A stretch of DNA of 64,000 bases, taken from an uncultured Mycobacteriaceae bacterium. GTDB lineage: Bacteria; Actinomycetota; Actinomycetes; Mycobacteriales; Mycobacteriaceae. The stretch is from NCBI GenBank assembly GCA_902826815.1, contig CADEGF010000004.1, positions 1-64,000 on the forward strand, given 5' to 3'. Numbering within the stretch: the first letter of the stretch is position 1; each line of letters begins with the position of its first letter. This document shows positions 47,379 through 51,333 of the stretch, piece by piece. Made by a program: the position numbers and the translations under genes. The notes under the pieces are model-generated. The model made no database searches and was not told the DNA's origin. It was given only the letters and a program-made list of their open reading frames with translations.

Positions 47379-47930
47379 ATGACCATGAGGCTCGAAGGTC
47401 TGCGACTTCGCCAGCGCGACTCCACGGCATGCGGTCCGAGTGTCGCGGTGGTGGCGGGCGCGCTGCTGGATCCGGACTACCGGACGACGCTGACGGATTC
47501 CCCGCGGCGCTGGTTCGACGACGAGCAGCTGCGGATCCACACCGAGGTGAACCGCGTCTGGCCCCGCATGCTCGGCACCACCCCGATGGGAATCGCCCGA
47601 GCCCTCACCACCCGCACCGAGGTGCGCGGCGTGCAATACCGGTGGCGGTTGTTCCGCGGCCGGCGCGACCGGCTGGCCGACGTTCAGTACTTCGTGAAGG
47701 AGGGCTGGCCCGTCGCAATGCTTGTCGGCCGGTTCATCCCGAGGCACTGGGTGTTGATCGTCGGCGTCAACGGAGAGACGTTGCGGTGTTATGAGCCGTC
47801 GTCGGGCGACGTGCGGCCGGCGAACGTGAACGCATTGAGGCATTCACGGCTGACGGGGCTGGGCTATCGGCGGCCGTTCGCGTTCGTGCTGCCCTCGTCG
47901 AAGGCGGCGACGCGCTCGGCGACCACCTGA
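47379..47930 (+). CDS. Cysteine-peptidase-like (C39-like) protein
   Basis: Protein of 183 residues with a papain-like arrangement: Cys18 in DSTACGPS, a histidine in IPRHWVLIVG near residue 128, and an acidic/Asn position in CYEPSSGD. The spacing and order Cys-His-Asp/Asn match C39-like domains, but the protein has no signal peptide or transporter partner, so the activity may be intracellular or lost. ATG 47379 or ATG 47385 starts it. The 3' end overlaps the convergent paiB-like gene by 67 nt, an unusually long overlap that should be checked. Confidence 0.65.
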   Translation: MTMRLEGLRLRQRDSTACGPSVAVVAGALLDPDYRTTLTDSPRRWFDDEQLRIHTEVNRVWPRMLGTTPMGIARALTTRTEVRGVQYRWRLFRGRRDRLADVQYFVKEGWPVAMLVGRFIPRHWVLIVGVNGETLRCYEPSSGDVRPANVNALRHSRLTGLGYRRPFAFVLPSSKAATRSATT

Positions 47931-48514
47931 TCGCGAGCGTCGGCGGAGGCCCGCAGCCCGGCGATCACACCGGCCCGGTTCCGGTCGGGTTGGTTCTGCG
48001 ACATCTTCGCCTTGCCCTCGACCTTGGCGATGACGATCTCGATGCCGACGATGCCGCGCAGCTGTGACTGCGTGAACTCAGCGGGCGCGTCGGTCACCTG
48101 CCAAGGTTGGGGCCGGTCGGCCTCGTGCCGGTTCGTCAGTTTGGTGACCAGGTCGAGCAACCAGTCCGGGTCGTCGTGGATGACGAGCTGGCCGTAGACG
48201 TTGAGGATCTCGTAGTTCCAGGTGGGCACGACCTTGCCGGTCTCCGTCTTCGTCTCGTAGAAGCCCGGCGAGATGTAGGTGTGCGGGCCCGCGAAGATCG
48301 CGACGGACTCGGCGCCGTCGGCATGCCAATGCGGGTTGGCCCTCGAGACGTGCCCGATGAGCGAGTGCGCGGCCTTGTCGTACATCAGCGGAAGCGGCGT
48401 CACCAGCAGGCCGGCCGAATCGTGGCTGACCAATTGCGCGAACTCCGCCGACGCGAGCGCCGCAGCGGTCTGCTCGTCGGTGAGGGCGAACTTGCGAGGT
48501 ATGTACATCCCCAT
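47864..48514 (-). CDS. PaiB-family FMN-binding negative transcriptional regulator
   Basis: Protein of 216 residues of the PaiB family. The N-terminus MYIPRKFALTDEQTAAALA, LVTPLPLMYD, IGHVSRANPHWHADGAESVAIFAGPHTYISPGFYE and VPTWNYEILNVYGQLVI are family signatures of an FMN-binding split barrel. Members repress sporulation or protease genes in Bacillus, but the role in mycobacteria is unclear. ATG 48514 or ATG 48508 starts it. Its promoter overlaps the SOS-like box at 48529-48544, so LexA could affect both directions. Confidence 0.88.
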   Translation of the reverse strand: MGMYIPRKFALTDEQTAAALASAEFAQLVSHDSAGLLVTPLPLMYDKAAHSLIGHVSRANPHWHADGAESVAIFAGPHTYISPGFYETKTETGKVVPTWNYEILNVYGQLVIHDDPDWLLDLVTKLTNRHEADRPQPWQVTDAPAEFTQSQLRGIVGIEIVIAKVEGKAKMSQNQPDRNRAGVIAGLRASADARDQVVAERVAAFDEGSTNANGRR

Positions 48515-48528
48515 TCAGCGTAGCGCGT

Positions 48529-48544
48529 TCGAACGTATGATCGA
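48529..48544. promoter_or_regulatory. Near-consensus LexA/SOS box overlapping a -10
   Basis: TCGAAC-GTAT-GATCGA differs from the mycobacterial LexA box TCGAAC-N4-GTTCGA at one of twelve positions. It contains TATGAT (48536-48541), a near-perfect -10, and abuts the ATG codons at 48545/48548, so the downstream gene looks leaderless and LexA-repressed. Confidence 0.68.
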
Positions 48545-48547
48545 ATG

Positions 48548-48862
48548 ATGGGCGACCTCCAGTCCATCGGCTACAACGGCCAACCCGTGCAACAAGCCTT
48601 CCGGCCCGTCGAGCCGCCGATGGCTGTCATCGTCGACCTCGCCGCCCTGTTTCCGCGCGAGCCACACAGCCGCGGCGGATACAACCCGGCCGGACTACAG
48701 ATGCATTCGGTCGTCGAGGGCCGGCTGACCTGCTGGGCCATCTGCGAGCAGGGCCACTGGTGGGGCCTCGTCACCTATCCCATCGTCTACGGCCCGAAGC
48801 GAAGATCGGTGACGCACTGGATTCCGGCGTGGATGTTGAAGCCCAAGCCGGATCGCGGATGA
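48548..48862 (+). CDS. Small hypothetical protein with SOS-like promoter
   Basis: Protein of 104 residues with no recognised domain. It is rich in aromatic residues (CWAICEQGHWWGLVTYPIVYG, then VTHWIPAWML) and has a basic C-terminus. ATG 48548 or 48545 starts it immediately after a LexA-like box, implying a leaderless mRNA induced by DNA damage. It converges with the 13E12-type fragment (10-nt gap), whose own promoter has a perfect LexA box. Function unknown; the aromatic WW/W-rich stretch could be a small-ligand or nucleic-acid surface. Confidence 0.72.
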   Translation: MGDLQSIGYNGQPVQQAFRPVEPPMAVIVDLAALFPREPHSRGGYNPAGLQMHSVVEGRLTCWAICEQGHWWGLVTYPIVYGPKRRSVTHWIPAWMLKPKPDRG

Positions 48863-48872
48863 CGAACATGCG

Positions 48873-49193
48873 TCAGGCCGACGGCCGATCGACGTCGCGC
48901 GAGTAGAGGGCTGCGGCGACGCGACGCTCCGCTTCGATCGGCGAGATCCGCAGCCGTCGCGACAAGACCTCGGGCCACGATGCGCCGCCGAACTGTGGCG
49001 GCGGAGCTTGCGTGATCAGCCGGCCGAGCAGTCGACGGTCGAATGCCACCAGTTCCTTGCCCAGCTCGTCGACCTGCTGGAGCAGTGATATCCGCTCGGA
49101 CCAGGTCAGCGTGTGCAGCGGCGCGGCGAGCAGCTTGTTCTGTCCCGTCTTGATCGCATTGAGAGCGGTACTGATTTCGTCTTTAGAACTCAT
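48873..49193 (-). CDS. Short 13E12-family (DUF222) protein, probably truncated
   Basis: Protein of 106 residues resembling the N-terminal DUF222 part of the 13E12 HNH endonuclease family: TLTWSERISLLQQVDELGKELVAFDRRLLGRL, then FGGASWPEVLSRRLRISPIEAERRV. Full-length family members are 400-500 residues and carry a C-terminal HNH domain, missing here. ATG at 49193 lies 3 nt after a perfect LexA box, and some 13E12 genes in M. tuberculosis are SOS-induced (from memory). It may be a decayed remnant or a functional short form; the intact promoter argues for expression. Confidence 0.72.
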   Translation of the reverse strand: MSSKDEISTALNAIKTGQNKLLAAPLHTLTWSERISLLQQVDELGKELVAFDRRLLGRLITQAPPPQFGGASWPEVLSRRLRISPIEAERRVAAALYSRDVDRPSA

Positions 49194-49196
49194 GCC

Positions 49197-49212
49197 TCGA
49201 ACACTAGTTCGA
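49197..49212. promoter_or_regulatory. Perfect mycobacterial LexA/SOS box
   Basis: TCGAAC-ACTA-GTTCGA matches the mycobacterial LexA consensus at all twelve positions and is extended by GCC/GGC on both sides, giving 9-bp arms. It sits 3 nt upstream of the 13E12-type start on the minus strand. TAGTGT inside it is a possible -10. Confidence 0.9.
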
Positions 49213-49224
49213 GGCACCGACAAG

Positions 49225-49665
49225 TCAGGGAACCCCGATCCGCCAGATCTGTTCAGTGTTGCCCGCGGGCCGGGTCACCACGGTGAAGTCGCCGTGGACA
49301 GTGGCTTCAAGAAAGCGACCGGTGCTCACCTGCTCGATCGTGGCGAAGCCGCCGCCGAAATCCTCGATGAGCCAGCGCTGGGTGCCGTTGCCTTGTCGCG
49401 ACCGCGTCACCACCCGGAAGTCCAGTTCTGTGACCTCGTGGGCATCCAGGAAGCGGCCACTGCTGACCTGCTGAATCGTGCTAACACCGCCGCCGAGGTC
49501 CGTCACTCTCCAATGTTGGGTGGCGTCGAAACTCTGGAACTCGCGGGTGATGACCCGGAAGTCCTTCTCGCGCATCTCGTGTGCGTCGAGGAAGCGCAAG
49601 CCGCCGCCCTGCAACCGGATGATCCTGGTGTCGGCCTGCGTGCCCGCCGGTGTCGTGATGGACAT
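49225..49665 (-). CDS. Beta-trefoil-like triple-repeat protein (copy A)
   Basis: Protein of 146 residues made of three similar units of about 43 residues, each with RFLDAHE or RFLEAT followed by DFRVVTR: LRFLDAHEMREKDFRVITR, GRFLDAHEVTELDFRVVTR, GRFLEATVHGDFTVVTR. The intervening QHWRV, QRWLI and QIWRI segments give a QxW-like pattern, as in ricin-type beta-trefoils that bind sugars or proteins. No signal peptide is seen, so it may be cytoplasmic or exported by another route. ATG at 49665 is chosen. A close paralogue lies at 50863-51333 in opposite orientation, flanking a membrane protein gene. Confidence 0.75.
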   Translation of the reverse strand: MSITTPAGTQADTRIIRLQGGGLRFLDAHEMREKDFRVITREFQSFDATQHWRVTDLGGGVSTIQQVSSGRFLDAHEVTELDFRVVTRSRQGNGTQRWLIEDFGGGFATIEQVSTGRFLEATVHGDFTVVTRPAGNTEQIWRIGVP

Positions 49666-49867
49666 ATCGCTCACGCTAGGAACGCGTCGGCGCGATGCCA
49701 CGAGTGGCGCACTACCTGTCCTTTCGTCCGCGGTACTTACCCGCGGGATAGGAAACTCTTGCCCGCCGACCGCAGGAATCTGGCTTTCCGGCGATTACGC
49801 AGGAACGGCCTGATCACGACCATGAATGTCGTCCCTCAGGAAAACCGAAACGACGTAGGAACCCCTA

Positions 49868-50862: not shown

Positions 50863-51333
50863 ATGTCCACCAAGATCACGCGCACCAAAAAGCCCACCAA
50901 AAAGCCCGTCGATGTGGCGGAGTTCGCCCCGAGCCGGATCGTCCGGCTGCAAGGCGGAGGCCTTCGCTTCCTCGACGCCCACGAGATCCCGCAGAAGGAC
51001 TTCCAGGTCGTCACCCGCCCGTTCCAGGGCTTCGACACCACCCAGCACTGGCGGATCACCGACTGGGGCAACGGGAGCACCATCCAGCAGGTCAGCAGTG
51101 GCCGATTTCTCGACGCACACGAGATCGCCGAGCTGAATTTCCGCGTCGTCACCCGCCCTCAGCAGGACAACGACACCCAGTTGTGGCGCATCCAGGAGTT
51201 CGGCGGCGGATTCGTCACCATCCAGCAGGTGAGCAGTGGCCGGTTCCTCGAGGCCACGCTGACCGGTGACTTCGACGTCGTCACCCGTCCGCAAGGCAGC
51301 GATCAGCAGACCTGGCGACTCGGCGACGCATAA
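50863..51333 (+). CDS. Beta-trefoil-like triple-repeat protein (copy B)
   Basis: Paralogue of copy A, 156 residues, with the same three units (LRFLDAHEIPQKDFQVVTR, GRFLDAHEIAELNFRVVTR, GRFLEATLTGDFDVVTR) and QHWRI, QLWRI, QTWRL. By eye about 70% identical to copy A outside the N-terminus, which here is basic (STKITRTKKPTKKP). ATG at 50863 has an AAAGGAAAATC RBS. It probably forms a transcript with the membrane protein gene. The basic N-terminus could bind nucleic acid, lipid head groups or the acidic side of another protein. Confidence 0.76.
   Translation: MSTKITRTKKPTKKPVDVAEFAPSRIVRLQGGGLRFLDAHEIPQKDFQVVTRPFQGFDTTQHWRITDWGNGSTIQQVSSGRFLDAHEIAELNFRVVTRPQQDNDTQLWRIQEFGGGFVTIQQVSSGRFLEATLTGDFDVVTRPQGSDQQTWRLGDA

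Follow-up and report, generated by a model that had tools for sequence, protein, structure and literature searches.

An uncharacterized small protein family of Actinobacteria preceded by a conserved LexA-type box

What is the role of two small convergent genes, each with its own SOS box at its start, in the genome of an uncultured Mycobacteriaceae bacterium, and do they belong together? We examined this question in a window of 64,000 nucleotides, the whole stretch of DNA analyzed here, in which the two genes, P0001 and P0002, are arranged as listed in Table 1. The original prediction had described two boxes, the starts beside them, a TATGAT element and 10 nt between the stops, and re-reading the sequence bore out these claims at all coordinates. 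The ATG of P0001 (48548) lies 3 nt after its box; likewise, the minus-strand ATG of P0002 (49193) lies 3 nt from its own, and the gene runs to a stop codon whose last base is 48873. P0001 could also start at the in-frame ATG at 48545, although relatives favor 48548. The DUF222-type gene in the window is the short one, with no full-length DUF222 gene present.

Table 1. Coordinates of the features of the P0001-P0002 locus in the window.
Feature	Coordinates	Strand	Remark
Predicted LexA (SOS) operator of P0001, TCGAACGTATGATCGA	48529-48544	+	1 mismatch to TCGAACN4GTTCGA
-10 element TATGAT, within P0001 operator	48536-48541	+	6 nt before start codon; putative leaderless promoter
P0001, 104 aa, uncharacterized	48548-48862	+	Member of an actinobacterial family of LexA-boxed small proteins
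Gap separating the convergent stop codons, 10 nt	48863-48872		Coordinates
P0002, 106 aa, stand-alone N-terminal DUF222 (13E12) protein	48873-49193	-	Assigned by profile comparison
Predicted LexA operator of P0002, perfect, TCGAACACTAGTTCGA	49197-49212		Pattern match
-10 element TAGTGT, within P0002 operator	49201-49206	-	7 nt before ATG 49193; putative leaderless promoter

The surroundings of the pair hold several further genes. An FMN_bind_2 (PaiB-like) gene (47864-48514) is divergent from P0001 and starts 14 nt from the P0001 box, which might also touch its promoter; it occupies the same place in some relatives only. The ORF at 47379-47930 resembles, by eye, a C39/papain-type peptidase. Because a homologue of this ORF lies upstream of P0001 in 28 of 125 loci, ending at most 400 nt from it, the FMN_bind_2 gene may be an insertion here. 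Two similar lectin-like (ricin-repeat-looking) ORFs, at 49225-49701 and approximately 50863-51333, flank a possible membrane protein gene.

Boxes of this type are more frequent than expected, both in the window (12 sites with up to 2 mismatches vs. 4.17 expected, a number reached in 0 of 100 shuffles) and in the whole genome, where 11 perfect sites were found vs. 0 for the reversed pattern. The same genome encodes LexA (C36, 269.7 bits), and upstream of this host lexA gene sits TCGAACACATGTTTGA, the 16-mer of the M. tuberculosis lexA box given in Table 1 of PMC8607333. Sites with at most one mismatch are common, with 66 in the genome vs. 21 for the reversed-pattern control. A lone one-mismatch box is thus weak evidence, and the case for P0001 therefore rests on the placement of its box and its conservation in relatives. 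The abundance of such sites also speaks for a different reading, in which the conserved motif is not a LexA operator: it would mark either a strong leaderless promoter or the target of a different regulator that binds palindromes, its GATCGA half reflecting the TATGAT element.

Within the genus, P0001 matches were found in 218 of 297 genomes (own genome counted), and no match in the remaining 79. Promoters were read in 109 of the 217 other matching genomes, taken from the top of a similarity-ranked list with six skipped, a sample that favors closer orthologues. The original prediction had proposed a search for homologues of the 104-residue protein and for a LexA box preceding them; a box with at most 2 mismatches preceded the gene in all 109 promoters (one mismatch in 105, two in 4). 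The distance from box to start was exactly 3 nt in 103 loci, 4 nt in 4, and 20 and 0 nt once each, and two box sequences, TCGAACGTATGATCGA (81 loci) and TCGAACATATGATCGA (24), covered 105 of the 109. Similarly, 44 named loci from Mycobacterium, Mycolicibacterium or Mycobacteriaceae records, whose genomes overlap partly with the 109, yielded 38 boxes with one mismatch and 5 with two; the single locus without a box (L077) has no start codon at the usual place. When 110 loci, including the window, were aligned on the box, 15 of the 16 box columns carried 1.8-2.0 bits and the remaining one 1.17, whereas the base directly before the box carried 1.08 bits and the 39 columns 2-40 nt upstream at most 0.4. 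As judged from this alignment, the box is conserved and the upstream flanks of P0001 are not. The gene is under purifying selection, with dN of 0.044-0.28 vs. dS of 0.5-1.2 in six comparisons with the window.

Two irregular copies were seen along the way. In one orthologue (L119), the box lies 20 nt from the start and a second copy of TATGATCGA occupies the usual place, which looks like a partial operator duplication. The genome of the window also contains a second, disrupted P0001-like copy (L002, G000:C53, 820-1031; E 6.8e-6), split over two frames, one with a stop; its best upstream site has 5 mismatches to the LexA box.

A leaderless mycobacterial promoter needs a -10 element at a short, defined spacing from the start codon, such as that observed here. 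Of 110 same-genus P0001 loci, 109 have the pattern TANNNT at 6-7 nt upstream of the start codon, a count that is not independent of the box; so do 30 of 30 boxed partners, compared with 206 of 9825 ATG/GTG triplets in the same DNA (2.1%). No -35 element is conserved in the box-anchored alignment of 110 loci. Since the -10 spacing fits a leaderless promoter, bound LexA should block RNA polymerase directly. The P0001 promoter thus looks leaderless and covered by its operator, and the earlier proposal of leaderless genes with the box over the promoter finds support in the sequences of the genus. Outside the genus the -10 element is less uniform: where the start follows the box, 29 of 37 loci have it, and so do 7 of 24 loci of a mixed class, which is labeled by a start codon inside the box and also holds loci starting after it. 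The mismatch in the genus boxes is nearly always the same, GATCGA for GTTCGA, and falls within the -10 element, as a promoter motif or the site of another regulator would have it. The same fixed mismatch could arise in a LexA operator if A is preferred at that position of the -10 element.

More distant relatives discriminate between these readings. A search of the GTDB family with profile A1, built from 33 sequences, detected members of the P0001 family in 63 of 251 genomes, spanning 13 of 31 genera. Of the 55 matches listed for genera other than that of the window, 54 were read; together with three plasmid loci they make 57 divergent loci, several from one genome. In each, the best site was sought over a range from 200 nt before the aligned part to 60 nt into it. 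The number of mismatches was 0 in 11 loci, 1 in 40, 2 in 1, 3 in 1, 4 in 3 and 5 in 1. Hence, 51 of the 57 loci have a box with at most one mismatch, vs. 0.0066 expected per search from the same DNA elsewhere, and 52 have one within 2 mismatches. The box is missing in five loci, of which one (L203) is a fragment, one (L228) retains a ATGTTCGA half, one (L232) begins with MFE, and two (L229, L230) show nothing. Homologues boxed at no more than one mismatch occur in all 12 of the other genera, and relatives in these genera, on plasmids and in prophages keep the box at approximately 30% protein identity. Outside the genus, the distance between box and start, as read, is 20-100 nt in some loci.

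One branch has its start codon within the box, so that the N-terminal residues, MFE or MFD, are encoded by the box itself. A homologue from this branch matches 118 plasmid records, mainly from Rhodococcus, Prescottella, Gordonia and Mycolicibacterium, and 9 M. abscessus prophage records. Of 10 mobile loci that were read (from 3 prophages and 7 plasmids), a box with at most one mismatch is present in 7 and one with two mismatches in 2; the box-less locus overlaps the preceding gene. P0001 itself as a query returned no phage match, and 46 pattern matches obtained when viral contigs were searched with A1 included no relative.

When the class was searched with the wider profile A4, 26 of 394 genomes gave a match; 23 belong to the same GTDB family, one to another family of the order and two to other orders of the class. 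Six of 8 further loci found with A4 have a one-mismatch box, and the two without are both extra copies in one genome. A remote branch, reached through two distant genomes, occurs in 29 of the 394 genomes and 15 genera, and shares approximately 50 C-terminal residues with the P0001 family (49 columns, with a profile comparison score of 96.4%, or 61.5% with the narrower A1). Thirty of its loci were fetched and 29 re-found; of these 29, 13 carry a perfect box, 12 a one-mismatch box (background 0.005) and four none. The proteins of this branch (L283-L312) are small and boxed, and many start with MAGGM and have an RHCWV motif; a TrkA_N gene lies upstream in 4 of 20 of these loci, all in one genus (g72).

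Overall, the boxes are strongly conserved in same-genus, divergent and remote loci, a point on which the original prediction had been open to refutation. The perfect boxes outside the genus have the spacers TAAT, TAGT, TAGA, ACAT, AGGT and CGTG, and the palindrome arms persist while the spacers change in other genera and plasmids. A plasmid copy from M. alvei carries a different mismatch, TCGCACTAATGTTCGA. Because both spacers and mismatches differ between genera, the box is better explained as a LexA site than as a frozen promoter. The perfect boxes of the remote branch and the fit of the boxes to the published LexA consensus (PMC4181829) point in the same direction, and we consider a promoter motif or the site of another regulator very improbable. 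Judged from sequence, LexA control of P0001 is very likely.

We then asked what P0002 is and whether it forms a unit with P0001. The original prediction had named it a short 13E12/DUF222 protein. Its score against Pfam PF02720 (DUF222), 17.1 bits, is below the gathering cut-off of 24.4, whereas its profile aligns with the N-terminus of full-length DUF222 proteins over 95 columns (hhalign 98.85%, E 4.2e-17), so the name stands on the profile match and not on the Pfam score. In addition, 13 of the 20 members of its alignment match DUF222 at E 0.01 or better (best 1.7e-7), and helix-turn-helix models are matched by some relatives as well. Little of P0002 follows the 95 aligned residues, and it has no C-terminal HNH part. 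Its AlphaFold2 model is all-helical (mean pLDDT 89.9), and Foldseek found no PDB match below E 0.001. As far as profiles can tell, P0002 is the stand-alone N-terminal part of a 13E12/DUF222 protein. We argue that this short gene is not a dead stub, since it is constrained: dN/dS is about 0.07-0.36 in six pairs, with dN 0.115 vs. dS 0.863 for a close relative. In the same genome, DUF222 matches number 13, with one gene accounting for two, and a box with no more than one mismatch is found close to the start of five of these DUF222 genes.

The pairing itself could be taken to mean that P0001 and its 13E12/DUF222 partner form a single damage-induced module, such as a nuclease together with an inhibitor or immunity protein. 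A boxed convergent DUF222-type ORF follows P0001 within 1.2 kb in 30 of 111 loci, including the window; two further loci have the box only and 79 neither, three of the 111 having offered less sequence to read. The convergent two-gene cassette of the original prediction is hence present in the window, but the conserved unit is P0001 with its box: 81 loci have no boxed partner ORF within this distance, adjacency is not constant, and the boxed DUF222-type partner is, by this count, clade-specific. When the range was extended to 2.5 kb, a boxed minus-strand ORF was found in 25 of the 44 named loci, at least one of which (L076) is not DUF222-like. In six named loci (L039, L048, L049, L053, L064 and L075), a distance of 1.36-1.54 kb separates the P0001 stop from the short boxed gene, and a longer DUF222 gene lies between, in the same direction as the short one; it is a long open frame in four loci, and in L039 and L064 it was recognized from tblastn pieces. 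Such a longer DUF222 protein was detected in the partner place by tblastn at 14 locus ids on 10 distinct contigs, 10 ids having it as a long open frame, which also favors a module. So does the start of contig 22 of the same genome (L003, G000:C22, 1-141), where a C-terminal end (PERYLIPDE...) that by eye resembles the longer DUF222 proteins faces, in convergent order, a 17-residue remnant of the 3' end of P0001 (E 0.024), much as the two genes are arranged in relatives.

The nuclease part of such a module is itself uncertain. An HNH-like motif was seen by eye in the longer DUF222 proteins, but Pfam HNH matched one of the five scanned, at E 0.024 and below the cut-off, and we therefore do not call them nucleases. 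Moreover, the P0001 and P0002 profiles fail to match each other, and neighbors vary across the wider P0001 family. A joint module is thus an unlikely account of the pair, and two separately promoted genes remain our preferred reading.

What P0001 does is suggested mainly by its composition and its predicted fold. No match was found in Pfam, NCBIfam, PHROG or PADLOC; Pfam searches with 16 A4 members gave single-member matches only (best E 0.037), and a sequence search of the PDB with A1 gave none. A PDB chain matched by A4 at E 0.84 was discarded. The protein is basic, with a pI above 8 in 109 of a set of 110 orthologues (median 9.44). Nine positions are invariant among 16 diverse members, including W63, W71, W91, P93 and G69, which make up an aromatic and glycine core; no charged residue is invariant, D30 being nearly so. 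From this pattern, P0001 looks like a binding protein and not an enzyme. Its AlphaFold2 model is beta-rich (strands 18-30, 55-65, 71-81, 84-93 and 97-99; mean pLDDT 77.4). The Foldseek comparison with the PDB was headed by a Tudor domain at E 1.0, followed by SH3 and chromo-barrel chains at 2.4 or worse, none of them significant, and the list also holds ribosomal and unrelated folds; no match in the PDB or among viral models fell below E 0.001. The model suggests that the fold may be an SH3-like beta barrel, and our best guess at the activity is that of a basic SH3-like binding protein; that it binds nucleic acid or a repair or replication protein has about one chance in three of being correct.

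Gene neighborhoods bear on another possible role, that of an SOS-induced accessory of translesion synthesis, similar to the small proteins encoded beside error-prone polymerases. On plasmid pSVJI1 of S. venezuelae, the LexA-controlled hypothetical gene pvnz_37140 indeed shares an operon with an error-prone polymerase (PMC9380542). We followed this idea through the neighbors of the P0001 family and found it unsupported: no polymerase is named among the annotated neighbors in 10 phage and plasmid regions, which are ordinary, varied genes, many of them "hypothetical", and none was found among 20 neighbor ORFs of the remote branch that were scanned. An accessory of this kind is quite unlikely. Clustering of shared neighbors produced two huge chained clusters. 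Because no neighbor recurs widely in these 10 regions and 20 ORFs, P0001 seems to be a stand-alone gene.

We therefore favor, with a probability of roughly 0.7, an explanation in which the window carries two separately promoted, LexA-repressed SOS genes, with P0001 as a binding-type effector. In an undamaged cell, LexA sitting on an operator that overlaps the core promoter, with the -10 element inside or touching the box and the start codon within the box or 3 nt after it, would block transcription. Upon damage, RecA-driven cleavage of LexA would free the promoter, and a leaderless mRNA would be made and translated, as the conserved sequence leads us to expect. P0001, the conserved core, may then bind nucleic acid or a replication or repair protein during the SOS response, and its gene, found on chromosomes, plasmids and prophages, would work on its own. 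In some relatives, a P0002-type gene precedes a full-length DUF222 gene in the same direction, pointing at P0001.

P0001 thus appears to be a well-supported, uncharacterized SOS gene, and its family is probably a component of the bacterial DNA damage response that has been overlooked. Its promoter, in which the operator and the -10 element coincide with the 5' end of an mRNA that is probably leaderless, would be a simple natural design for tight repression. Given that P0001 also occurs on plasmids and in M. abscessus prophages, mobile elements may be using it to exploit or adjust the SOS response. More tentatively, and with somewhat less than an even chance of being right, P0001 may represent an actinobacterial superfamily of dedicated SOS effectors, encoded by single, leaderless, LexA-controlled genes in chromosomal, plasmid and prophage DNA, that bind DNA or a replication or repair protein and modulate the damage response of the host.

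LexA-regulated small genes are a known kind; P0001 is one without a Pfam or NCBIfam family. SulA, YneA, DivS and ChiZ are short proteins under LexA control. SosA, likened here by description only, is likewise a short LexA-controlled protein. The beta-rich model of P0001 is unlike the membrane peptides among the small SOS effectors, again compared by description. PHROG contains one entry without a function, phrog_37248, that is matched by 7 of the 16 members of the wider P0001 alignment (best E 2.3e-9), although not by P0001 itself. The open PMC literature yielded no description that could be linked to P0001, although an induction in M. smegmatis may already be known under an MSMEG locus tag. 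For P0002, the closest comparison is with the 13E12 genes of M. tuberculosis, whose LexA control is already published, the LexA-regulated ones including Rv0515, Rv1702c, Rv3074 and Rv3776 (PMC5005354). The Rv3074 box as printed holds ATGTTCGA, which we read as the same layout of a box over the start (PMC8607333, Table 1), and a C-terminal HNH part is named for 13E12 genes (PMC4181829). Like these genes, P0002 has an SOS box at its start and aligns over 95 N-terminal DUF222 columns; unlike the full-length 13E12 proteins, it comprises 106 aa without the rest of DUF222 and scores below the Pfam cut-off.
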